Shown one piece after another: positions 4,324 to 59,699 of a DNA stretch of 64,000 bases. The notes beneath the pieces were generated by a model. That model did no database searches, had not been told where the DNA came from, and worked only from the letters and a program-made list of their open reading frames with translations. Made by a program: the position numbers and the translations under genes. How positions within the stretch are numbered: the stretch's first letter is position 1; each line of letters begins with the position of its first letter. Source of the DNA: Oscillospiraceae bacterium (GTDB taxonomy: Bacteria; Bacillota; Clostridia; Oscillospirales; Ruminococcaceae); the NCBI GenBank assembly GCA_009776305.1, contig WRLY01000001.1:496001-560000 (forward strand), in the 5' to 3' direction.

Positions 4324-4339
4324 ATTTTTATATAGCACA

Positions 4340-6034
4340 TCAAAGCAGGTCAGTTAAGCGAAAAAACAAATGCGAACCTCGACACTCAACTCTCAACGAA
4401 CTTATAGTCGTGTGAGAATATTGCGTGTCGAGGCTCTCGACCAGAGTCTGATGTTCTAAATACGAACCACCAACGTCAACATCTTTGCTTCCTGTAGTGG
4501 AGCTGTGATATTGCCTGCGGTGGCTCACCGCCGGGGGACTCGGTTCACAATAAGAACACCCCCCGCCCCCATTGCCACCGCTTTCACCACACACGCTAAG
4601 TATATTATAATCAAATTGCAGCGTTTTGTCAATCCCGTTGAAAAATATAACAGCGTGGTCGTCGTAGAGGTAAACGGCGTTGATAAAAATAGATATAAGG
4701 GCGCGTTTGTATTTTATATCGTTTTCGTCGCCATTCTTCAACCGCTCAAAGAAAAATTTAACTTCGCTTTCGGTGATTTCGGTTTTTTCCCATTGCTCAC
4801 GGGCAAGGGCGTTTTCAAGTGTCGATTTTTCAAGTTTCTTTTGTGTTATTCGCTCCGATAACAAGTCAATATGCTCCCCGTTTTCAATGGCTGTTACAAG
4901 ATTTTCTATCGCCTTTTCATTTTCCTTTAATTTCTTTTTGAGGTCTGAAATAATTGGTGTATGGTTTTCCAGTTTTGAAATTTCAAGCAATATTTTTGTA
5001 ACGTAGTTAATATTATCGTCCGTCAACTGCTCCCGCGCTTTTTCGAGTATGAAGTTTTCAATCCACTCTTTTTGCACCGATTTTTTGTTACATCCCTTTT
5101 TATTCCAAATGTGCTTGCATGTGTAGTAACAATGCTTTTTGCCTGATTTGCTTGTCCCTGAAACACCTACAAGCATAACTCGCTTGTCAAGTTCTCGTCC
5201 GTGATACCCGCAAAACAACTTAGTTGTCAACAAATATTCTGCGTTGTCCCTCGTACTTGCGGGGGATTTTTTCTTTTTGCTTCGGATTTGCTGAACCTTT
5301 TCAAATAAACCGTCCTCAATTATTCGAGGCATACCGTCTTTGACTTCTGCACCTCGAGTATACACGCCGATGTAGTTCCTGTTGTCTAATATTCGGTTAA
5401 TGCTGTTGCTGATATTCCCAAAAAACTTTTTACCAAATTGTTCTGTTATAGCCGTGTCAATCTTTCTAATAGTAAACCCTGCGGAGTACAATTCATAGAT
5501 TTTTTGAACAACGGGCGCGGTTAGGGGGTCTATTATGTATTTCTTGTTGTCGTCTAATTTATAGCCTATAGGCACAACCCCGCCAACATGCTTGCAATCC
5601 GCTATAGCCAAAGCTTGCCCCCGTTTGACCTTGGCTGAAAGTTCGGCGCTGTAATATTCAGCCATTGCTTCAAGCACACCTTCAACCATAATTCCCGCGG
5701 GGTCGTCGCTTATCGGTTCAGTCGCACTTACTACTCTGACGTTGTGCTTTTTTAAGTGCGATTTGTGGATAGCTGAATCATAGCGGTTACGGGCGAAACG
5801 GTCAGTACTATATATTAGTACAACCTCAAATTTTTGTTTTGCACTATCAGACAACATTTTTTGAAACATTGCGCGGCGGTCTGTTGTTCCCGTTTTGGCT
5901 CTGTCGGCGTACTCGCGAATTACTTCAAATCCGTTATCTTTTGCGAACTTTTCAACAACTACACGTTGCCCCTCAATGGAGGTCTCTTTCTGTCCTCGCG
6001 ACGAGTACCTATAGTAAGTTACAGCTTTAATCAT
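4340..6034 (-). CDS. Large serine recombinase (site-specific integrase/resolvase)
   Basis: The 564-residue protein starts MIKAVTYYRYSSRGQ; S11 in the Y-R-Y-S motif is the likely nucleophile. YSTDRFARNR holds the conserved arginines. After a resolvase domain (about 1-140) comes the recombinase domain (VPIGYKLD; RNYIGVYTRG). A zinc ribbon follows (CGYHG, then CYYTCKHIWNKKGC), then a coiled coil (about 350-420). From residue about 478 the protein runs into an 85-residue Gly/Ser/His-rich tail (SVCGESGGNGGGGC onward) with no family resemblance. The DNA encoding it holds inverted repeats (4377-4433) and a 15-mer also found in tsaD. The tail may be host or repeat sequence fused on integration. The gene overlaps the upstream zinc-ribbon gene by 4 nt and so shares its promoter. 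Confidence 0.93.
   Translation of the reverse strand: MIKAVTYYRYSSRGQKETSIEGQRVVVEKFAKDNGFEVIREYADRAKTGTTDRRAMFQKMLSDSAKQKFEVVLIYSTDRFARNRYDSAIHKSHLKKHNVRVVSATEPISDDPAGIMVEGVLEAMAEYYSAELSAKVKRGQALAIADCKHVGGVVPIGYKLDDNKKYIIDPLTAPVVQKIYELYSAGFTIRKIDTAITEQFGKKFFGNISNSINRILDNRNYIGVYTRGAEVKDGMPRIIEDGLFEKVQQIRSKKKKSPASTRDNAEYLLTTKLFCGYHGRELDKRVMLVGVSGTSKSGKKHCYYTCKHIWNKKGCNKKSVQKEWIENFILEKAREQLTDDNINYVTKILLEISKLENHTPIISDLKKKLKENEKAIENLVTAIENGEHIDLLSERITQKKLEKSTLENALAREQWEKTEITESEVKFFFERLKNGDENDIKYKRALISIFINAVYLYDDHAVIFFNGIDKTLQFDYNILSVCGESGGNGGGGCSYCEPSPPAVSHRRQYHSSTTGSKDVDVGGSYLEHQTLVESLDTQYSHTTISSLRVECRGSHLFFRLTDLL
4377..4433. repeat. Inverted repeat in the recombinase tail
   Basis: CCTCGACAC (4377-4385) and GTGTCGAGG (4425-4433) are perfect 9-bp arms 39 bp apart, within the part of the recombinase frame that has no protein-family resemblance. 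They overlap the 15-bp repeat at 4427-4441. The site lies next to the presumed left junction. Confidence 0.55.
4427..4441. repeat. 15-bp palindromic repeat GTCGAGGCTCTCGAC, copy 1
   Basis: GTCGAGGCTCTCGAC has 6-bp arms around GCT. An identical copy occurs inside tsaD at 18576-18590. A chance 15-mer match in 64 kb is very unlikely, so this may be a member of a small dispersed repeat family. Confidence 0.6.
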
Positions 6035-6588
6035 TTATACTTCTCCTTCCGCTTTTGAGCTCTTTCTACAATTATATCGTCATATTTTATAGCGATTCTT
6101 CTTAACGTGTGTACCGATATGTTCAAACGTTCTGCAATTTCAGTTACAAACCATGCGTGAATATGATACCCGTCCTCGCCTTTTTTGCCGTCAACATATA
6201 CTAAATATTTTGCTAAAATTTTCTCTTCTTCTATGAGCCGTTCTATTGTTTCTTTAGTGAAATATTTTTTACACTTCCTGCACTTGAAACGCTGTAATTT
6301 TTCGTCAAAATCCCCCTTGCTAATTGCTCCATCTTTTATCACATCATCTTTACTCTTGCAATAAGGACAATGCAAAATTGATTCTATCCGCGCCCGCGCT
6401 TTTGCTCTGTCTTCTATTTTTCTGTTGTGCTTAAAATCTTCGCTTTCGGTAGTATCAACCGTAAAGCGCATACCGCATAGCTTACATGAAAACCTTTGCC
6501 TTAAAGCGCTGGTGCGCCCATTTGCCACAATGCCCCTAACCTCTTTGCATTGCAAACAGGCGGGCTTTTCGGTGTTGTTATTACTCAT
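6031..6588 (-). CDS. Double zinc-ribbon, HTH-containing protein of the mobile element
   Basis: The protein has 185 residues. Two successive zinc ribbons are visible: CLQCKEV with CKLCGMRF (about residues 11-42), and CPYCKSK with CRKCKKYF (about 74-110). They resemble the IS1-type transposase N-terminal ribbons. The C-terminal third (EIAERLNISVHTLRRIAIKY) looks like a helix-turn-helix. GGAGG precedes the ATG. The last 4 nt overlap the recombinase start (ATGA), so the two are translationally coupled. The context suggests a DNA-binding partner such as a repressor or recombination directionality factor. That role is inference, since no transposase catalytic motif (DDE) is present. Confidence 0.75.
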   Translation of the reverse strand: MSNNNTEKPACLQCKEVRGIVANGRTSALRQRFSCKLCGMRFTVDTTESEDFKHNRKIEDRAKARARIESILHCPYCKSKDDVIKDGAISKGDFDEKLQRFKCRKCKKYFTKETIERLIEEEKILAKYLVYVDGKKGEDGYHIHAWFVTEIAERLNISVHTLRRIAIKYDDIIVERAQKRKEKYK

Positions 6589-6618
6589 ATTAGTGTACCT
6601 CCATATTGCCTTTTTTTA

Positions 6619-6647
6619 ATTATATCATAATTTTTCAGCGACGTCAA
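6619..6647 (-). promoter_or_regulatory. Sigma-A promoter of the zinc-ribbon/recombinase operon
   Basis: Read on the minus strand, TTGACG (6647-6642), a 17-bp spacer and TATAAT (6624-6619) lie about 30 bp upstream of the zinc-ribbon gene's ATG. The near-consensus strength implies that the recombinase operon is expressed unless repressed. Confidence 0.85.
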
Positions 6648-6753
6648 CCACCGAAAACGATTTTTGTTTAAACATTTGTGAATAAGGTAATATAATGTTT
6701 TTTTAAACGAGTAAATAAAAAATCGTATATCAACCATATAAAACGATTATCGC

Positions 6754-6782
6754 TTGTGCTCGTCGCAAATATAGAGTATAAG
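6754..6782 (+). promoter_or_regulatory. Possible promoter of the rightward replication genes
   Basis: TTGTGC (6754-6759), a 17-bp spacer and TATAAG (6777-6782) lie just before the ribosome-binding site (CAGGAGGGG) of the first rightward ORF. A second TATAAT at 6691-6696 has no good -35 box. The match is moderate only. Confidence 0.45.
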
Positions 6783-6804
6783 GCAATATTCAGGAGGGGT
6801 TTGA

Positions 6805-6972
6805 GTGATAACATTAGACAAAACAGGCGCGGAGATACTGGCGCGGCTTGTTATGGAAGATATAAGGGGTTACGCCGCCCGCTTCCCACAAGAATATGAG
6901 GAATTTTTAGCAAGAAATCAACCAATCCCCACCCCAACTATAAAAAGACGTAAACGGAAAGAGGTGTCGTAA
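6805..6972 (+). CDS. Small unknown protein of the mobile element (55 aa)
   Basis: A GTG start follows CAGGAGGGG. The protein begins MITLDKTGAEILARLVMED, has a central amphipathic helix (GYAARFPQEYEEFLARN) and ends in a basic tail (IKRRKRKEVS). The stop codon overlaps the next ATG (TAATG), so the two small genes are coupled. No family is recognised. Size, basic tail and position upstream of the Rep fit a small regulator, but nothing more can be said. Confidence 0.65.
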   Translation: MITLDKTGAEILARLVMEDIRGYAARFPQEYEEFLARNQPIPTPTIKRRKRKEVS

Positions 6973-7151
6973 TGAAGAAAATGGAAACAGGCGAGGTAAC
7001 AATTAATATAGGTGTCAAAGAATTTCTTGTGGCATGGCGGGAGGCTGACGACGTCTTTATGCTCCGAGAAGTCAACGGGTTTCATGCACGTTATATTTCA
7101 CAAGCGTTTTATGAAGCAATCCGCGCTGAATTTTCTGCAATCTCGCCATAA
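6972..7151 (+). CDS. Small unknown protein of the mobile element (59 aa)
   Basis: The ATG overlaps the stop of the preceding small ORF. The protein begins MKKMETGEVTINIGVKEF and continues WREADDVFMLREVNG, then RYISQAFYEAIRAEF. Alternating strand and helix character suggests a compact fold. No family is recognised. It lies 62 bp before the next gene and belongs to the rightward operon. Confidence 0.6.
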   Translation: MKKMETGEVTINIGVKEFLVAWREADDVFMLREVNGFHARYISQAFYEAIRAEFSAISP

Positions 7152-7213
7152 CGGCGTGTAATATATATTCTTTGGTGTAACCATTATTTTTGGAGAAAGG
7201 AGGAAAAAAGAAA

Positions 7214-7486
7214 ATGAAATTTAAAGTTCCCGAAACTGTAAGGGTTACCGCCCTTAAAAAAATTACAAGTAAAGCTGGCAACGAGCTGACTTTCGTGACT
7301 TTCGCGAATAAGTCAACTTTTGAAGTACTTGAAGTCAAGCTCACGCTTGCTGAGGGACAAAACGCCGCCGCAATTGTTGAGGGGCGCGACTACGCAGCGA
7401 TTGTCGATTTTGACGGTAATTACGGCTCTGTGACATTGACTCCCGCTGTAACCAAAACCGCGGCAACAACTCCCGCGGCGCGGTAA
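7214..7486 (+). CDS. Small beta-rich protein, possible ssDNA-binding protein of the rolling-circle element
   Basis: The start is the ATG giving MKFKVPETVRVTALKK, 10 nt after AAAGGAGG; an in-frame TTG 24 nt upstream precedes that site and is unlikely. The 90-residue protein is predicted to be mostly beta strand (ELTFVTFANKSTFEVLEVKL; DYAAIVDFDGNYGSVTL) with an Ala/Thr-rich tail. Size, beta content and position upstream of a Rep resemble the single-stranded-DNA-binding proteins of filamentous phages and rolling-circle elements (OB-like, 80-100 aa). That is analogy only; no diagnostic motif is visible. Confidence 0.6.
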   Translation: MKFKVPETVRVTALKKITSKAGNELTFVTFANKSTFEVLEVKLTLAEGQNAAAIVEGRDYAAIVDFDGNYGSVTLTPAVTKTAATTPAAR

Positions 7487-7494
7487 TAGCCGAA

Positions 7495-7514
7495 ACACCC
7501 GCCCGCGCGGGTGT
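7495..7514 (+). other. Hairpin between mobile-element genes
   Basis: ACACCCGC and GCGGGTGT form an 8-bp perfect stem with a 4-nt loop, 8 nt after the preceding stop codon. No T-run follows, so it may stabilise or partly attenuate the operon mRNA. Confidence 0.5.
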
Positions 7515-7578
7515 CCGTCGGGTGTGACTGACCCGCCGCTGACGAGGCAAGTCAAATAAATATAACTTGGAGGAAATT

Positions 7579-8304
7579 ATGAACAAAGCAATGAGCGCGA
7601 TAAGTGAGGGAATTGGCAAGGGCGCGGCAACAATAAAATCAGCCTATACCGATTCGGTTGAAAAGAAAGCGAAAGACAAGGAAAGGGTTAAAAGGGTGAG
7701 TAGGCTGTGGTTTGTGGCGATAATGTACAAATTTATAGCGTTAGAAATCAGCGAGATTTTCAATGCAACGGCAAAAGTGATTGGTTGCATTGATGAAACT
7801 GCGCCCCGCGAGATTCTTCTTACAACCAAAGCCGAAGATGTAAACGAAAATTCCCTCTACTACAAAATTCCTAAAGTGATTTGTGACGGCGAGAAGCCCC
7901 ATATCTCCGTCATACAGGACACCGCAAACGCTATAGGTCAAAAGCGGTTTAAGAGTGCGCTATCCCCCTTTCGTGTGCCTTTGGAGTGTACCCTGGAAGA
8001 AAGGGGCGGGGATTATCTTGTAAAGGTTGACGACGTTATAAGTAAACCGAAAAGACCATACAGACATAAGGGTTTAGGTTCTTGTATCGGCGTATTTAAT
8101 CATCGTGAGGGTAGTGAGTATTTTGAGGTTATCTCAAAAAAAGTTCACTATGTGACATTCGGCGACTCTTTTGAAGTGCTTAGCGGCGGGGTATTTGAAA
8201 AGGTGCGGATTGACTTCGACGGTGGAATTACTTTTGCTTCGGGCGCGCGGTATCCTATTAAATCGCTTGGCGGTAAGTTTGTGAGAATTGGCGAAAAGCT
8301 GTAA
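7579..8304 (+). CDS. Unknown protein of the rolling-circle element (241 aa)
   Basis: The start is the ATG giving MNKAMSAISEGIGKG; GGAGG lies 6 nt before it. The N-terminal 60 residues are helical and basic (SVEKKAKDKERVKRVSRLW). Then come FVAIMYKFIALEISEIF, too polar for a clear membrane span, and a beta-rich C-terminal half with many Val/Gly/Asp residues (FEVLSGGVFEKVRIDFDGG). No family is recognised. It sits between the possible ssDNA-binding protein and the Rep, so a role in replication or in a defective particle is conceivable but unsupported. A structured RNA element (8311-8353) follows. Confidence 0.65.
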   Translation: MNKAMSAISEGIGKGAATIKSAYTDSVEKKAKDKERVKRVSRLWFVAIMYKFIALEISEIFNATAKVIGCIDETAPREILLTTKAEDVNENSLYYKIPKVICDGEKPHISVIQDTANAIGQKRFKSALSPFRVPLECTLEERGGDYLVKVDDVISKPKRPYRHKGLGSCIGVFNHREGSEYFEVISKKVHYVTFGDSFEVLSGGVFEKVRIDFDGGITFASGARYPIKSLGGKFVRIGEKL

Positions 8305-8310
8305 GAAAAA

Positions 8311-8353
8311 AGGGCGGCGAGTGTAGCGCCAACGGCGCGGAGCTTGCCGCCCT
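8311..8353 (+). other. Two-part stem-loop between the unknown protein and Rep
   Basis: An outer stem (AGGGCGGCGAG at 8311-8321 with CTTGCCGCCCT at 8343-8353, one G-U pair) encloses an inner GCGCC/GGCGC stem. It lies 62 bp upstream of the Rep start and has no T-run. It could be an attenuator limiting Rep synthesis or part of a replication origin. Confidence 0.5.
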
Positions 8354-8414
8354 ATTATCTTGTTTATACGCTAACTTCTCACCGCGAAAGCAAGCAGATT
8401 ATAGGAGGTGAACC

Positions 8415-9428
8415 GTGTCAAAAGCAACTTTCAACCGTCAAAATAAAGCGCATCCAATACCCCGAAAAGCACTTGTAAAAGTCACGGAAATGAACCACAT
8501 AGTAGAATTGGTTTATACCCATAATGTTTCAAATACACTTGAAAAATACGTCAAACTTGACAAAAATTCCTATGCTGTAATTGAGCGTGAGACGGGTGAA
8601 GTCTTAGAGGTCAAGGACTATGAAATAAAGGAAAATCGCGCCCAAAATATAGCGGGATTAAAGCGTAGCATGAAAAAAATACGTGACCTAATAAACAACA
8701 ATTTCACAGGCGGGTTAAATGAGTTATTCATAACGCTTACATATGCACTTGTAGACGGGAAACCCATGACCGACACCAAAAAGGCTTCGCGTGATTTTCA
8801 AACTTTCATTAAACGCTTCAAGCGGAAATTTCACGATGCCGTTTGGCTTGCGGTCTTAGAGCCGCAAGCTTCGGGGGCTTGGCACTGGCACCTGTTGGTA
8901 AAATTTACCGATTGGAAAAGTCCCGCGCAAATACGAATTGACAACAACGAAGTCATATTTCCGCTTTGGGGTCACGGTTGGACAAAGACCAAAAGCCTAA
9001 ACCGTGTTGATAATATCGGTGCTTACCTCGGCGGTTATCTTTCTTCGGTTGAGATTTCAGAGGAAAACCGCGAAGAAATCTTTGATACTGTCTATAAGAG
9101 CGGGCGGGATTTGTCGATTGAGGAAAAAGAGGTTACAGGCGCAAACGGCAAGAAAATCTCGAAAAAATTTGTTAAGGGCGGGCGTCTACACCTCTATCCG
9201 AGCGGTACAAATATATATAGGTGTTCCCGCGAAATAAAGCCGCCGAAAACGCAAAACATTACATACGGCGAGGCTAAAGAATTAGTCGGCAACAGACCGC
9301 CTGATTACGCCCAAACTGTCATTGTCGAGAGCGGGGAGCGTGACGAACACCACAATTCGCGGCAATTTAACAAGATAGTTTATGAAAATTATAACCTTAA
9401 ACGCAACTCAACCACACCCGCCAAATAG
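8415..9428 (+). CDS. HUH-type rolling-circle replication initiator (Rep)
   Basis: The protein has 337 residues, a GTG start and a strong AGGAGGTGA site. Three motifs identify it: motif I LFITLTYA (104-111), motif II AWHWHLL with the metal-binding HUH pair H157/H159, and motif III IGAYLGGYLSS with candidate catalytic tyrosines Y204 and Y208. These match replication-associated proteins of the ORF2/G2P type found in rolling-circle plasmids and small phages. Such enzymes nick a double-strand origin and stay bound to the 5' end through Tyr. The usual Lys after the Tyr is not evident. No helicase domain is attached, so a host helicase would be needed. A terminator follows at 9433. Confidence 0.88.
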   Translation: MSKATFNRQNKAHPIPRKALVKVTEMNHIVELVYTHNVSNTLEKYVKLDKNSYAVIERETGEVLEVKDYEIKENRAQNIAGLKRSMKKIRDLINNNFTGGLNELFITLTYALVDGKPMTDTKKASRDFQTFIKRFKRKFHDAVWLAVLEPQASGAWHWHLLVKFTDWKSPAQIRIDNNEVIFPLWGHGWTKTKSLNRVDNIGAYLGGYLSSVEISEENREEIFDTVYKSGRDLSIEEKEVTGANGKKISKKFVKGGRLHLYPSGTNIYRCSREIKPPKTQNITYGEAKELVGNRPPDYAQTVIVESGERDEHHNSRQFNKIVYENYNLKRNSTTPAK

Positions 9429-9432
9429 AACA

Positions 9433-9458
9433 GCCCCGCCCAAATTGGCGGGGTTTTC
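9433..9458 (+). terminator. Terminator after the Rep gene
   Basis: CCCCGCC (9434-9440) and GGCGGGG (9447-9453) form the stem, followed by TTTTCC. It closes the rightward operon. Confidence 0.8.
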
Positions 9459-9487
9459 CTTTACAAATTATCGCTCTGTTGTTCCCC

Positions 9488-9618
9488 CGAGGTGAACCAC
9501 CTCGCCCATTATACAAGCATAGCCCGTGGTTTTCGTGCTAAACTTGCAGGGGCGACGGGGGACGGTCTACATGTTATCACCCCGCTGCCCCCGTCGGCAA
9601 CCGCCACAAGCACGAAAA
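9488..9618. other. Structured non-coding region after Rep (candidate origin)
   Basis: No convincing gene lies between the Rep stop and about 9760. The stretch holds nested inverted repeats. CGAGGTG/CACCTCG (9488-9504) is a tight hairpin with a 3-nt loop. TTTTCGTGCT (9530-9539) pairs with AGCACGAAAA (9609-9618). Between them are GACGGGGG and a complementary CCCCCGTC. Such multi-hairpin regions are typical of single- or double-strand origins of rolling-circle replicons; this assignment is inference. Confidence 0.5.
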
Positions 9619-10163
9619 TTCGCGGCAGTCAAGGGGAATGTGGAATAAACAAGGGAGGGCTTATATGCTTTTGCGACGTCGGCAGATGATAATTTTATTG
9701 ATAGAAGAAGTGGCGGGTTTATGCCGCAAAAGCCCCTTGACTGCCGCGAAAACGGGCGGGGGTAGGGGTAAACACCGAAGAACATAATACTGTTTTGTAC
9801 TTCGGGTCTCGTCCATGACACATAAGAGCGCCTGAATTGTTGAGCTAAAGCGGTATTTACTGACATGCCGTCATAGCCTTCATTCCAAGACGTATTTGCC
9901 GGTTTTTCTAATGAAGTATCTTTCTTTTGAAGCTTGCTTTCGTCTCTGTCGATTATATAATCTGGGTTGTTTGTGAGGAAGACGGCAAAACCTGAATAAC
10001 CTACACGTATGTTAGTGGTCGAAAGTGTTGCACCTTGTGTACCGCCGACACCGTCACTATTACTTGCGAACGCCTCGATTGTAAACATTTGTATGGCAAA
10101 GACCATTGCAAGCAATAGGGTTATTGCTGTACGGAATTTTCTTTTAATGGCTGTCTTGAACAT
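9567..10163 (-). pseudogene. Exported protein gene, probably truncated at its 3' end by the mobile-element junction
   Basis: The start is the ATG giving MFKTAIKRKFRTAI; AGGGGGAC lies 8 nt before it. Residues 1-33 form a signal peptide ending IEAFA. The next about 100 residues look like real protein (NIRVGYSGFAVFLTNNPDY, YIIDRDESKLQKK, NEGYDGMSVNTALAQQF). From about residue 138 (after GVYPYPRP) the frame runs through the inverted-repeat region and becomes Cys/Arg/Pro-rich noise (GCRRGQRGDNM), ending at 9567. Probably only the N-terminal portion of a secreted host or accessory protein remains. No family is recognised. Confidence 0.5.
9619..9750. repeat. 18-bp perfect inverted repeat flanking 96 bp at the right end of the element
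   Basis: TTCGCGGCAGTCAAGGGG (9619-9636) recurs as its exact reverse complement at 9733-9750. The 96 bp between hold no gene of note. The right arm coincides with the point where the leftward exported-protein gene loses protein-like character. It could be an element terminus, a recombination site or a small inverted-repeat insertion. Confidence 0.7.
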
Positions 10164-10299
10164 ATCTGAAGTCCCCCTATATAATAAAAGACTGATTAAT
10201 AGCTGATAAAAGGAGTAACACACGCCTGAATCTGAAGAGCGTGTTAAAAAAGTTTTTATTAGGGAACTTGTATAGGCATACGGTAAAGTGCAAAATAAA

Positions 10300-10331
10300 A
10301 ACACCTTATCCGAAAAATCAGATAAGGTGTT
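10300..10331 (-). terminator. Terminator of the leftward transglutaminase operon
   Basis: AACACCTTATC (10300-10310) pairs with GATAAGGTGTT (10321-10331). On the minus strand the stem is followed by TTTTATTTTG, a good U-tract. It lies about 100 bp past the stop of the Cys-rich mini-protein. Confidence 0.85.
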
Positions 10332-10348
10332 GGTGTGTTTGGTATAGG

Positions 10349-10412
10349 GGCGTGGATAACCCCGCCTGCAGGGAAACTCGCCGTGAAGTATTGCGGCGTA
10401 GATAACCCCGCC
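10349..10412. repeat. Two near-identical 18-bp direct repeats in a 3' untranslated region
   Basis: GGCGTGGATAACCCCGCC (10349-10366) and GGCGTAGATAACCCCGCC (10395-10412) differ at one base and are spaced 46 bp start to start. Each is followed by a GCAGG motif. They lie between a stop codon and its terminator. Confidence 0.65.
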
Positions 10413-10430
10413 GCAGGCAATTAATTATCT

Positions 10431-10634
10431 TTATTGCATTTGACAATATGGACACGACTCGCATAGCTTATCAGCAAGTGCAGGGTCAAAATCAGGAACG
10501 AGGGAATCTTTTTTCATCATTTTACCCCTAACCGACTGAATATCATAGCACAGCCCTCGGTCAATATCGGATTTTATCAGGGGGCAAGGGTAAAATTCCT
10601 GAAACAAAATCCGTGTGTCTATTTTTTTCTGCAT
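10431..10634 (-). CDS. Small Cys-rich protein (67 aa), unknown
   Basis: It begins MQKKIDTRILFQEFYPCP and ends CESCPYCQMQ. The terminal C-E-S-C-P-Y-C cluster and the two earlier cysteines (YPCPL, GLCYD) could bind zinc. It overlaps the end of the upstream gene by 16 nt, implying translational coupling, and is the last gene before the terminator at 10300-10331. No family is recognised. Following a possible toxin-fold protein, an immunity or accessory role is conceivable; that is context only. Confidence 0.55.
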   Translation of the reverse strand: MQKKIDTRILFQEFYPCPLIKSDIDRGLCYDIQSVRGKMMKKDSLVPDFDPALADKLCESCPYCQMQ

Positions 10635-10993
10635 TTCTTTACCTCCTCAATAATCCTGCGAATTGACGCATCGAACTCATTTCGCGTGTAGATTGTAACA
10701 ACATACCCGTTATCTACTTGAACTACCACATTACCGTCCGCAGATAGATATAGTCTTTGTAGTCCGTTATTTTGAACAAACATTACTATAGCTGAATTAA
10801 CGTAACCCTGCGCCGTGACAATAATTTTATTCGCAGGTATTCCGCGCTGTGCCGCTCTTTTTGCCGCATGTGGTGATACGCCAACAACACGTATAGGAAC
10901 TGTCGGGCGTGCTAAACCTATGCGTTGATTGACTTTCCTATGACGTTTTAATTGCCCGATAATACGATTTAATCTTGTGTAATCAATACTCAT
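10619..10993 (-). CDS. Small basic protein with DUF4258-like/toxin-fold pattern
   Basis: The start is the ATG giving MSIDYTRLNRIIGQ, preceded by GAGGGTGG; the open frame runs 16 codons further upstream. The 124-residue protein has a basic N-terminal helix. Its second half has the order HAAKRAAQRGI, then IVTAQGYVNS, then VVVQVDNGYVVTIYT, and finally a helix. That H-x(4-6)-RG-I plus VVT-x-YT layout resembles DUF4258-type domains, several of which are RNase-like toxins. No signal peptide is present. It is the second gene of an operon led by a secreted transglutaminase-like protein. The similarity is by eye and weak. Confidence 0.55.
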   Translation of the reverse strand: MSIDYTRLNRIIGQLKRHRKVNQRIGLARPTVPIRVVGVSPHAAKRAAQRGIPANKIIVTAQGYVNSAIVMFVQNNGLQRLYLSADGNVVVQVDNGYVVTIYTRNEFDASIRRIIEEVKKCRKK

Positions 10994-11049
10994 TAAGGCC
11001 ACCCTCAATCTTTTTTTACAAAGAATAGAGGGTAGGCACATAATAATTT

Positions 11050-12207
11050 TTATTTTATCTCGCGAGTTTTTGAAACTGAAGTAGCGACTCCCGCTCTTAG
11101 TTGCTCGTCAGTTATTGGTATACGTATTTCCCATTTTAAATAGGTCTTACCATTCTTCTCTATAATTTCAACGGAACGAAAATACTGGTCTCCGCTATCA
11201 GCGACTATAATATCTGCAGGACGTTTTAATTTAGTAAACTTGTCACTCGCCGTATCATACGCATAAATATCATACCAGTCGTTGAAGTAAACTTTCCCAT
11301 TGTGAATACCGATATATTCCAGGTTTCCGCCTGCGGATTTCGGGGGAGTGGGGGTACGAGTTGTTTTTGATTTTATGTCAAACACAGTTAAGGAAGCGGA
11401 GCCGTCTTCGGTGTTGGAGAAGAAAGCGGTGTCGCCTTGGACGGTGATGAGGTTGCCTTCGATAGAGTGAGGGGTTTTGGTGTTGGTGCGGTAGTTGTAG
11501 AAAACATATCCGTTGGCGGTTTTGTACTCAATGTAATCTCCGTATTTTCCGAGACAAGGGTCGGTAATGTTTGACTCGAAGGTGGTGGTTTTTTTGGTGG
11601 TTGCGTTGTATCTTTTAATTTGTTTTTTGTCGCGGTCGAAGTAGTATACTGAGTCGCCTGCGGGGACGAATTCGCCTGAACTTCTGGTATTGGTGGCGTA
11701 TGAATTTTTTGCTGTGGCAGGATACCGTTCCCGATTCCATTCGTGTGTTTTTCTTGCTAACGCGTCGTCAGAAATTAGGAAATTGTTATATTTATTCATG
11801 TCTTTAAACAATGTGTCCATGTGATACCACTTGCCGTCGAGTTTAACAAGATTCCAAGCATGACCTTCTCTCCCGAAAGTCCCTGACGCGGTACCCACGA
11901 TATACATATTTTCTATTTCCGCTTCCGTGAGCAGACGCTGTACACTACGCGCAAATCCGTCGCAATTCCCTTGCTTTTCTACCAACGCAGAATGAATTGA
12001 TGACTTTGACCTTGTGTATATGACATTATCATTCATCCAATCATAAAATATTGTAATCTTTTCAAGGTCAGTAGCATTTTTCGGAACTGTTTTCATGATT
12101 TCCGCTACTGCTTCGTCTACTGTTTTTGCAGAGGAAGCGGACGCAGGCAATGTGAATACCGAAAGTGCTATCGCGAATAAAAGTAGGCAAGTTGTTAGTT
12201 TTTTCAT
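11050..12207 (-). CDS. Secreted transglutaminase-like protein with C-terminal beta-propeller-like region
   Basis: The 385-residue protein has a signal peptide (MKKLTTCLLLFAIALSVF, cleavage near PASAS). Residues about 30-150 are a transglutaminase-like core: catalytic Cys in GNCDGFARSVQ, His in EGHAWNLVKL and Asp in WYHMDTLF, the papain-like triad. These domains act as cysteine peptidases or transglutaminases outside the cell. Residues about 170-370 contain repeated short strands (DSVYYFDRDKK, GDTAFFSNTEDG, NGKVYFNDWYDI), resembling DUF5050-like propellers that may bind a surface polymer. GGAGGA precedes the ATG. It leads an operon with the two small genes downstream. Confidence 0.82.
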   Translation of the reverse strand: MKKLTTCLLLFAIALSVFTLPASASSAKTVDEAVAEIMKTVPKNATDLEKITIFYDWMNDNVIYTRSKSSIHSALVEKQGNCDGFARSVQRLLTEAEIENMYIVGTASGTFGREGHAWNLVKLDGKWYHMDTLFKDMNKYNNFLISDDALARKTHEWNRERYPATAKNSYATNTRSSGEFVPAGDSVYYFDRDKKQIKRYNATTKKTTTFESNITDPCLGKYGDYIEYKTANGYVFYNYRTNTKTPHSIEGNLITVQGDTAFFSNTEDGSASLTVFDIKSKTTRTPTPPKSAGGNLEYIGIHNGKVYFNDWYDIYAYDTASDKFTKLKRPADIIVADSGDQYFRSVEIIEKNGKTYLKWEIRIPITDEQLRAGVATSVSKTREIK

Positions 12208-12227
12208 GGTTTGAATCCTCCATTATG

Positions 12228-12458
12228 TTATGTACTTTCTTGGTAACACTCGTATTTTTTATTATCCGAGGCGTTTACGGATAAAATTGACGCGCGCCCG
12301 ACTGGTTTGCGATTTGTTTGTAATTCTACTTTTCCCGAAGAGGAAGTAGTCAAGGATTGTTTGGTGAAATAAAGAATTATGTTGCCGCTTTCACGCTTTA
12401 TGCGGTATACATAATAACCGCGGTTTGTTTCCCCGTCATAAATAACAACGCCTTGCAA
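12228..12458 (-). CDS. Uncertain small ORF upstream of the transglutaminase gene
   Basis: The open frame reads LQGVVIYDGETNRGYYVYR and ends KKYECYQEST, 20 bp before the transglutaminase start. The composition looks protein-like, but no ribosome-binding site or ATG precedes it. A possible -10 box (TATACT on the minus strand, 12468-12463) lies immediately before the TTG. It may be a gene remnant or the long 5' leader of the downstream gene. No family is recognised. Confidence 0.3.
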   Translation of the reverse strand: MQGVVIYDGETNRGYYVYRIKRESGNIILYFTKQSLTTSSSGKVELQTNRKPVGRASILSVNASDNKKYECYQEST

Positions 12459-12552
12459 TACCAGTATAACACATATTGAAAGTATTTGTAAATGGGAGAT
12501 TTGCAGAAATTTTTGGGTTTGATTTGGTGATTTTGATAAAATAGCAGACAAA

Positions 12553-12580
12553 GAACGCCAAGGTAAACACCTTGACGTTC
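12553..12580 (-). terminator. Hairpin after tRNA-Ser
   Basis: GAACGCCAAGGT (12553-12564) and ACCTTGACGTTC (12569-12580) pair with one mismatch. On the minus strand the stem is followed by TTTGTCTGC, and on the plus strand by TCTTTT, so it may work from either side. It lies about 77 bp past the tRNA 3' end. Confidence 0.6.
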
Positions 12581-12656
12581 TCTTTTCGGTTTATAAATCC
12601 ACCCAAACAGCAAACCCGCCGTTGAATATTATGGTGTTCGTATATAAACCGATTCG

Positions 12657-12742
12657 CGGAGGTGAAGGGATTCGAACCCCTGTGGGCTTGCACCCAAACG
12701 GTTTTCAAGACCGCCCCGTTATGACCACTTCGGTACACCTCC
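12657..12742 (-). tRNA. tRNA-Ser (anticodon TGA)
   Basis: On the minus strand the acceptor GGAGGTG pairs with CACCTCC. The loop CTTGAAA gives anticodon TGA. The 86-nt length and long variable arm are typical of tRNA-Ser. CCA is not encoded. Its 3' end faces the accessory region, but no duplicated tRNA end was found that would mark an integrated island. Confidence 0.96.
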
Positions 12743-12792
12743 AAATTCTGAAAGTCAACCATAAAATATAATAACACATCGCGACGGTTTTG

Positions 12793-13056
12793 TCAACTGT
12801 AATTTAAATGCTCGTGAAACATTTCGAGAATTCGCTCTGCCATATCGTCGGGATGCTGTATGCCGTTGGCTCTGAACATTTCCATAAATTCCCGATTCGG
12901 GCAAATTTTATTACTTCGCAGCCATAATCCGATTCCCGAATGATATTTATAAAACTCGTCCCTATTTGCGTTTTTGAAGGTTTCTAATTCTTTTCCTAAT
13001 TTTCTTTTTAAACTCGGGAAGAGATTTTTTATTTCCTTGCATAAATCTTCATTCAT
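12793..13056 (-). CDS. DUF6794-like small protein
   Basis: The protein has 87 residues. The second half carries FYKYHSGIGLWLRSN, a FRANGIQHPDDMAERIL segment and a terminal helix. This resembles the YH.G.G.W.RN ... GI.HPDDMS..IL pattern of DUF6794-type proteins, which are often encoded in accessory or toxin-immunity neighbourhoods. No signal or membrane segment is seen. A G-rich ribosome-binding site (GGGGGGCGAG) precedes the ATG. It is divergent from the RHH gene, sharing a 13-bp inverted repeat in the promoter region. The function is unknown. Confidence 0.65.
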   Translation of the reverse strand: MNEDLCKEIKNLFPSLKRKLGKELETFKNANRDEFYKYHSGIGLWLRSNKICPNREFMEMFRANGIQHPDDMAERILEMFHEHLNYS

Positions 13057-13400: not shown

Positions 13401-14720
13401 ATCTTTTACAAAATAATCCTCAGCCAACCTCTCAACCTGCCCCGCGTTCATTTGGTTATTCTGCATATTCTGTTCATTCTGCCCGCTCATATCGAAAAAC
13501 TGTTCAATAGCCTCACGCTCGAATCCGGACTCCTCTTCAATTTCCTGTTCAAGCCCCTCGACGTTTTCGTAGTCTTCGCCTTTTTCAAATTCAAATTCTT
13601 CGGCGTTAAAGCTCTCTCCCGAGTGTTCAATCTCGGAATAACCGTCCTTTTGGTTGAAATCAGGGGTTACGCGGTTTTCCGCCGCTAAAATAGCGGCAAT
13701 CAAGGCTTCGGTTTCCTCCGCCGTAAGCTCCGAAAGTGCGGCAATATGCTCGCTCGAAAGGTGCGGCGCTAACTTATCGGTGATTTCCTGAGGTATTTCA
13801 GACAGCCCGTGGCTAAGAGAAGCGATTTCCTCAAGGCTCAGATTAGATACGATTATGGCAATGGCTTCGTTGAGGAGAGGATTTCCCAATTCGGGGAAGT
13901 TCGGAATGTTGCCCGTGTTTTCCGAATCATTGCCCGAAACCGGAATAATGGTTTTCACATCGCGGATTTGCCTGCCGGAATGGTCAATGTGATAATCTTC
14001 GTTATAAATCAAATCTCCTACCCGAACAAACTGGAAACCGCCCTGCCGTAATTTTGTAAGGATTTCAGGCAACGCCTCGGTTGTGTTTTCAAGGTCATTG
14101 TGGAAAAGCAGGATTGAACCCGAATCGGTCTTGTCTGTCACGCGTTTTACTATGGTAGCTGGGTCGGGCTCTTGCCAGTCTATGCTGTCCACCGACCACT
14201 GAATGAAATTATAGCCCAATCCCTCAATGGTTTTCAAGGCGTTTGCGTCATATTCGCCGTAGGGGGCGCGGTACAGCGCGGGGCGGCTTCCTGTAATCAT
14301 CATGATTTTGCGTTCACTTTCCCGCGTGTCCTCGATTATTTTGTTAATGTTCATGCCTTTTAAGTGAGGATGGGCGTCGGAATGGTTGCCAATTTCATGA
14401 CCGGCGTTCATTATTTTGCGAACGTCGTCGGGGAATTTTTCGCTGAATTCCCCCGTTATAAAAAACGTGGCGAAAACATTATGCTCATCTAAAATAGCCA
14501 GCAATTCATCGGTGTTTGAATTTCCCCAGGCGCAGTTGAAAGAAAGAGCAATTTTATTGTCGTTCCTCTCGACCGAATAAATGGGAAGCCTGGTTTCTGA
14601 CGCACCGGTGTTTATTGATGTGAGAACGGCGGCAATTCCGACGGCTACGCCGATGAACACCGCTAAAATGATTAACGCCGCTCGAAGGGCGCGCTTTCCG
14701 GACATAGTTAAAACAAACAT
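13398..14720 (-). CDS. Membrane-anchored polysaccharide deacetylase (PdaB-like), possibly inactive
   Basis: The start is the ATG giving MFVLTMSGKRALRA, preceded by AAAGGGGATT; the upstream frame continues for 30 codons without a site. The 440-residue protein has an N-terminal membrane anchor (about 11-35) and a NodB-fold domain (about 60-255). It shows IALSFNCAWGN, FATFFITG, HEIGNHSDAHPHL, YRAPYGEYD and SILLFHND. The H-x3-H zinc ligands are present, but the usual catalytic Asp (F-D-x-x-W-G in PdaB proteins) is Asn here. A 170-residue acidic, Gln/Asn-rich tail follows (EQNMQNNQMNAGQ). PdaB-like proteins act on spore-cortex or cell-wall peptidoglycan. It follows two degenerate signalling genes on the same strand. 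Confidence 0.82.
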   Translation of the reverse strand: MFVLTMSGKRALRAALIILAVFIGVAVGIAAVLTSINTGASETRLPIYSVERNDNKIALSFNCAWGNSNTDELLAILDEHNVFATFFITGEFSEKFPDDVRKIMNAGHEIGNHSDAHPHLKGMNINKIIEDTRESERKIMMITGSRPALYRAPYGEYDANALKTIEGLGYNFIQWSVDSIDWQEPDPATIVKRVTDKTDSGSILLFHNDLENTTEALPEILTKLRQGGFQFVRVGDLIYNEDYHIDHSGRQIRDVKTIIPVSGNDSENTGNIPNFPELGNPLLNEAIAIIVSNLSLEEIASLSHGLSEIPQEITDKLAPHLSSEHIAALSELTAEETEALIAAILAAENRVTPDFNQKDGYSEIEHSGESFNAEEFEFEKGEDYENVEGLEQEIEEESGFEREAIEQFFDMSGQNEQNMQNNQMNAGQVERLAEDYFVKD

Positions 14721-59612: not shown

Positions 59613-59699
59613 TGTTTTTCCTCCGAATAATTTTTATTTTTGTATAATTTTCTTATACAAGCTTATTATATATGAACCTAAGACGTGAAAAAATCATAT

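Follow-up and report, generated by a model that had tools for sequence, protein, structure and literature searches.

A large serine recombinase and a rolling-circle Rep in a probable integrative element at the tRNA-Ser(tga) gene of an Oscillospiraceae bacterium

Genes and features of the locus

The DNA studied here is a 64,000-nt stretch, below called the window, from the genome of an Oscillospiraceae bacterium (G000:C1:496001-560000; genome 1.54 Mb, 71% complete). The element under study lies near its left end and carries the gene of a large serine recombinase (LSR), a zinc-ribbon partner whose gene overlaps the LSR start, and a divergent operon ending in the gene of an HUH-type replication protein (Rep). 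The original prediction, which joined these genes into one compact integrated element at 4340-9750, was right about the presence of all of them. The features of the locus are listed in Table 1.

The LSR contains the Pfam domains Resolvase (E 7.1e-26), Recombinase (E 1.3e-10) and Zn_ribbon_recom (E 1.3e-6), and matches PHROG 95, integrase (4e-95). Its partner matches zinc ribbons of the IS1 and IS256 types and, weakly, an excisionase-like helix-turn-helix (HTH), and is a candidate directionality factor; among 197 genomes of the family, own included, it had one other weak match (E 6.6e-4). Rep belongs to PF23343 (E 9.6e-16, 58.3 bits; cut-off 27.8). Across 12 aligned Reps, His157 and His159 of the HUH motif are invariant and Tyr204 is nearly so.

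The other products of the divergent operon are small. The one encoded at 7214-7486 had been taken for a possible ssDNA-binding protein, an assignment that was not borne out: no Pfam, PHROG or NCBIfam match below E 0.05 was found and the structural model had low confidence. A search of 295 genomes of the order detected the 241-aa protein in none but its own, and nothing similar was found in plasmids. The models of the 241-aa and 90-aa proteins were too poor for searching. The strong hairpin preceding rep is a candidate origin region, whereas the inverted repeat at 9619-9750 may be a single-strand origin or another hairpin. The open reading frame (ORF) at 9567-10163 has an N-terminus that reads as signal-like; this predicted exported protein had no relative in 70 other genomes of the genus, and the kinase of the left flank had relatives in 7 other genomes. 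PADLOC gave no match for seven proteins.

Table 1. Features of the locus in window coordinates
Feature	Position	Strand	Remarks
Host tRNA-trailer repeat, two units	4331-4531	-	displaced from tRNA; covered by last 63 codons of LSR frame
LSR, open frame, 564 aa	4340-6034	-	element-encoded down to about 4532
Left end of insertion	~4532		based on half-site at LSR 3′ end
Proposed attP half-site P	4539-4561	-	at LSR 3′ end
Zinc-ribbon protein, open frame	6031-6588	-	overlaps LSR start by 4 nt
55-aa ORF	6805-6972	+	no significant family match
59-aa ORF	6972-7151	+	no significant family match
90-aa protein	7214-7486	+	all-beta in low-confidence single-sequence model (mean pLDDT 48.6)
Predicted type II hammerhead ribozyme, RF02276	7488-7556	+	Rfam 44.1 bits, gathering score 37
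241-aa orphan protein	7579-8304	+	weak DUF5348 match below Pfam cut-off
Strong hairpin 5′ of rep	8312-8352	+	DNA fold of 8300-8415
HUH Rep, REP_ORF2-G2P type, open frame, 337 aa	8415-9428	+	
Cargo ORF	9567-10163	-	no Pfam match
18-bp perfect inverted repeat	9619-9750		arms 96 nt apart
Cargo ORF	10619-11041	-	weak DUF4258 match below cut-off
Cargo, transglutaminase-like protein	11050-12207	-	PF01841, E 2.8e-12
Proposed attP half-site P′	12633-12655	-	beside tRNA; best inverted partner of LSR-end half-site within 9430-12800
Right end of insertion	~12656		adjoins tRNA-Ser(tga)
tRNA-Ser(tga), integration target	12657-12742 (Rfam); 12656-12742 (ARAGORN)	-	

Insertion at the 3′ end of tRNA-Ser(tga)

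The predicted borders 4340 and 9750 were not borne out. Bases 4331-4534 were found again, at 91%, directly 3′ of tRNA-Ser(gga), and related repeats adjoin other tRNA genes; in this genome the repeat mostly follows tRNA genes, and we call it a trailer. Twelve aligned trailer units share a 6-bp hairpin, three of whose six pairs are changed on both sides. The covariance model built for the trailer gave 19 matches in G000; of the 59 other genomes searched, four had matches, 18 in all. When 25 arrays were held against ARAGORN predictions, 18 started at the 3′ end of a tRNA gene (Ser, Pro, Val, Ala, Lys, Leu), and the seven remaining ones are those of the window, L019:4053, L253, L260, L266 and the weak L275 and L276. 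The repeat is host tRNA-linked DNA, and the 63 codons of the LSR frame that cover it are therefore host-derived. At the same place the LSR genes of relatives mostly have a conserved stretch, e.g. GGTTCGGATTT...CACCA. Streptococcal rumA elements are a described case of an integrated serine-integrase gene that gets its 3′ end from the host (PMC4701971).

The tRNA-Ser(tga) gene of the window lacks a directly following trailer, which is found instead at a distance of 8.1 kb, on the same strand. In the congener G027 two trailer units directly follow tRNA-Ser(tga), beside a deacetylase gene homologous to window 13722-14642 (55% over 311 aa). The half-site at the LSR end and the reverse complement of the bases following the tRNA (GGTGTTCTTATTGTGAACCGA and GGTGTTCGTA-TATAAACCGA) form an imperfect inverted pair, as expected of half-sites of attP.

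The half-site rule was applied to 39 LSR matches. Seven were testable, that is, they had a tRNA upstream on the same strand as well as a GTTC motif close to the end; 32 were not. In six of the seven the best inverted partner lay within 20 nt of the tRNA 3′ end: tRNA-Ser in the window, Ala in L104 and L113, Glu in L110 and L121, and Gln in L127. The miss was L123 (tRNA-Leu). At L110 the scripted motif lies past the LSR stop; the conserved half-site alone also pairs best just after tRNA-Glu. As a control, the best partner in direct orientation was near the tRNA 3′ end in none of the seven loci, although direct partners elsewhere scored higher than the inverted partner, or within two units of it, in five. 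The six fitting islands measure 5.2-9.9 kb, and in L104, L110, L113 and L121 the final 6-8 bases of the tRNA are found again at the LSR end. This general test is stronger than the window's own pair. The rule, by which the LSR 3′ end pairs with the bases following a tRNA, is a simple guide to the true ends of islands of this kind in draft genomes.

Taken together, the sequence comparisons support insertion by a serine integrase at the 3′ end of tRNA-Ser(tga), and place the insertion at about 4532-12656, some 8.1 kb with the cargo included.

At tRNA-Gln the same genome has a second LSR island (L127:3037-10830, G000:C2), whose two half-sites match almost perfectly. The LSR frame there is interrupted close to its end by a shift or stop, and the cargo appears to include a DUF262-type protein and a PDDEXK-type nuclease.

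Rep and its pairing with serine recombinases

A tblastn search with Rep returned 31 plasmid records, 18 of them covering at least 80% of the query and 29 typed as non-mobilizable. The two best plasmid matches listed (44% and 42% identity) are on records of 1.6 and 1.8 kb; close relatives reside on cryptic plasmids of 1.5-2.6 kb, and some matches on larger ones. Three phage records match at 31-35%. Searching PDB with the Rep profile gave no match, and no relatives of Rep or of the 241-aa protein were confirmed in viral contigs.

Rep was matched in five of 98 other genomes among the relatives. In addition to Rep, L025 and L026 each have an FtsK-like ATPase and a tyrosine integrase; L028 has a Rep match and an FtsK-like gene, L029 is a phage-like contig, and in L027 an LSR remnant and Rep adjoin tRNA-Ala. 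Scanning genome contigs with the single Rep protein gave no confirmed locus, and a two-sequence profile gave 12, among them L148 of a Defluviitaleaceae metagenome-assembled genome, with Rep and a tyrosine integrase near tRNA-Arg. An LSR lay within 6 kb of Rep in six of these 12 loci (L149, L153, L154, L155, L157 and L158; phmmer, few queries). In L149, L157 and L158 a distance of 0.3-0.9 kb separates Rep from the LSR that follows it on the same strand, and L149 has a 119-aa gene, Rep, a 68-aa gene and the LSR in one apparent operon. PF23343 occurs in 74 of 345 genomes of the order; among 60 stretches taken from that genome list, six had an LSR within 6 kb, a number had terminase matches and seven had no called Rep.

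A tree was built of 30 hand-chosen Reps. The presence of an LSR takes three changes on it, and the starred branches force at least two; the pairing therefore probably arose more than once, as judged from this tree. The nearest row to the window Rep is that of L148 (46%), a position that is not strongly supported. The LSR and Rep modules can occur apart, but in Clostridia they are repeatedly found together.

Another PF23343 locus, L215 (G416:C7:425000-444000), contains three matches of equal score spaced exactly 2,906 bases apart (430394, 433300 and 436206), possibly a head-to-tail integrated plasmid multimer.

Nature of the element

We interpret the locus, with a probability of roughly 0.6, as an integrative rolling-circle element of about 8.1 kb that resembles integrative and mobilizable elements (IMEs) and lies between tRNA-Ser(tga) and that tRNA's own downstream repeat. 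Its parts look like known kinds, a phage-type serine integrase and a small-plasmid replication protein, brought together in one tRNA-end mobile element; this pairing is uncommon. As in IMEs there is an integrase at a specific site (LSR domains, tRNA 3′-end site, half-sites). The element also encodes the HUH Rep, which may have a role in transfer as an RCR-related relaxase. Self-replication, as originally predicted, is still the best reading, for an element larger than had been drawn and with an LSR and a Rep that also occur separately in relatives.

Pfam and PHROGs scans of the element's proteins reported, in line with the original prediction, no capsid, Zot or canonical relaxase, nor any virion or terminase gene within the element ends. 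Terminase, portal and capsid queries had no match in the window (phmmer, few queries). No FtsK match, such as would indicate the FtsK/SpoIIIE-type Tra protein of actinomycete integrative and conjugative elements (AICEs), was found in the scanned proteins of the element or in the window. A larger phage or integrative and conjugative element (ICE) spanning both sides had been named as an outcome that would speak against the prediction; this applies in part, in that the element is bigger than drawn, but no phage or ICE was seen around it.

The following life cycle can be proposed. The serine integrase would recombine attP, composed of its own 3′ end and the DNA now beside the tRNA, with the tRNA 3′ end, leaving the tRNA whole and giving the integrase gene a host-encoded C-terminus; the comparisons above back this first step. 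The zinc-ribbon/HTH protein would direct excision. Rep, expressed from the divergent operon, would nick an origin on the excised circle and start rolling-circle copying, as its family suggests, and might also act as the relaxase when a resident conjugative element provides for transfer. The hammerhead would cut the operon mRNA between the 90-aa and 241-aa genes.

Several points weigh against this reading. The activities it calls for (excision, nicking, replication, transfer, mRNA cleavage) are deduced from sequence. A coupling protein was not found in the element, and helper elements cannot be judged in a genome that is 71% complete. The window's half-site score is modest: among 19,963 random pairs, 73 score as high, and the inverted partner falls one unit short of the best direct one, though the latter does not lie near a tRNA. 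The core common to both ends is only ...CCG (4532 and the 12657 side), and the tRNA has no encoded CCA. The gene past the trailer differs between G000 and G027, with synteny on the tRNA side only. No Rep was found in any of the 39 LSR loci (L089-L127; E 1e-3, stretches up to 20 kb long, some of them truncated at the end of a contig), and in the Rep tree the neighbours of the window Rep are plasmids and a tyrosine-integrase island, a placement that is not strongly supported.

The absence of Rep from the 39 LSR loci, which include the tRNA-Gln island of this genome with its other genes, bears on the independence of the two modules that the original prediction had named as evidence against itself; such independence was found in part, yet the pairing recurs (L027 with its LSR remnant, L149, L157 and L158). 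The absence also favours a composite: an LSR island at tRNA-Ser(tga) would have taken up a cryptic rolling-circle plasmid, or a second element would have accreted to it, leaving Rep as a passenger that has ceased to drive the life cycle. A composite would also fit the location of the closest Reps on free plasmids and the lack of any relation between the cargo half (9.5-12.6 kb) and the Rep operon. We nevertheless consider a composite rather unlikely, given the open Rep frame and the recurrence of the pairing, with the LSR closely following Rep in L149, L157 and L158.

It is very unlikely that the element is a 5.4-kb unit of about 4340-9750, with ends possibly near 4555 and 9771. Both positions have the 6-mer AACACC adjoining a 9-bp GC-rich inverted repeat, and an inverted match of that length occurred in 76 of 20,000 random pairs of 30-mers. 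These ends were chosen post hoc, however, and would leave the trailer-less tRNA-Ser(tga) and the half-site following it unexplained; they were set aside given the displaced trailer and the half-site evidence.

Least probable of all is the satellite suggested by the original prediction, packaged or exported by a phage or filamentous phage, for which no evidence was found. One examined record of the three with a distant Rep is placed in Inoviridae, and both an LSR and a Rep-like gene occur on L067 and L074, two tailed-phage contigs, but the scanned proteins include no phage structural gene and the tailed-phage Rep L187 is on another branch of the tree.

Relation to known elements

The integrative rolling-circle element proposed here can be compared with several described systems, as far as the available portions of the papers show them. 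Streptococcal IMEs with relaxases of the rolling-circle replication (RCR) type, including class PHA00330 (PMC5357655, PMC5704250), are likewise small and combine an integrase with an RCR-initiator-like protein. They have no type IV secretion system, sometimes lack a coupling protein (35 of 118 RCR-type IMEs; PMC5704250) and have tRNA 3′ ends among their targets. Their integrases are tyrosine integrases, in contrast to the serine integrase, and the hammerhead ribozyme, found here. In the survey of 144 streptococcal IMEs, 128 tyrosine and 16 serine integrases were counted; RCR-type relaxases were all with tyrosine integrases, and serine integrases only with canonical relaxases (PMC5357655). A serine integrase with an RCR-type Rep and no coupling protein is thus a combination absent from that survey.

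AICEs with RepSA also integrate by a recombinase and replicate by an RCR initiator (PMC3218068). Some have serine recombinases, together with RCR-type Reps, and some of these use a tRNA-Leu gene; the AICE paper calls tRNA integration by serine recombinases rare, and the loci described above form a group of serine integrases that use tRNA 3′ ends. AICEs have an FtsK-like Tra protein, which was not found in the element. The filamentous phage phiRSM1, known here by its mention at tRNA-Ser in the same paper, differs by its virion genes, none of which were seen here.

The cryptic RCR plasmids pEXIG02 and pBAW301 have Reps of the same family (39-42% identical), but are free circles of 1.8 kb with no integrase in their gene tables. 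The L148 island is compact, lies 40 bp to 4 kb from tRNA-Arg and carries the Rep closest to that of the window in the tree; it differs by its tyrosine integrase and an XRE gene. No description of the LSR-Rep combination in Clostridia was found in titles and starts of abstracts, a search that subscription papers mostly fall outside. We regard the element as a new variant of known integrative rolling-circle elements.

Hammerhead ribozyme

The hammerhead predicted at 7488-7556, absent from the original prediction, has the conserved core in the alignment and scores as a member of its family. Bacterial hammerheads have been reported near integrase genes and prophages (PMC3088659). Type II matches at E 0.01 or better were found in 17 of 199 relatives, own genome included. 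Among 13 other hammerhead loci (own query set) an LSR was present only in L125, about 1.9 kb away, and Rep in none. With a ribozyme inside the Rep operon, mRNA processing in elements of this type becomes open to experiment. Type II hammerheads also lie upstream of large genes in three further species of the genus (G030, G031 and G029; L241, L242 and L243, respectively); these genes resemble those of Mu-type transposases.

tRNA trailer repeats

The hairpin at 9489-9503 was tried as a right-end trailer unit and rejected as weak. For one unit its best score was reached by one of 100 shuffles, and most trailer units scored no better than shuffles; with model R1 it gave 18.2 bits (E 0.0066), close to an unrelated match at 59655.

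The trailer is a structured repeat of about 93 nt that begins with its hairpin at the discriminator base of many tRNA genes, in some arrays in tandem, and its stems vary with changes on both sides. It was seen at window 4331-4531, in L019-L023 and L272-L274, and in G027, G021, G017 and G006. Several units end in GGTTCG[CT]ATTT, a motif resembling the LSR half-site; some 27-29 nt past it there is a tRNA-end-like TCCG or CTCGA, where the hairpin of the next unit starts. It is a doubtful but conceivable idea that the same tRNA-targeting serine-integrase system left the trailers as tandem scars, or that they are its minimal non-autonomous units. If true, the element studied here would be an autonomous member of a family that goes down to about 90 bp in its smallest members.

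At L019:2435-4350 (G000:C1, about 109-111 kb) 1.5 kb separate tRNA-Pro(tgg) from a trailer array on the same strand, unlike in G027 (L258), where the trailer is directly 3′ of this tRNA. This gap may be due to another insertion of this kind, one that lacks an LSR.

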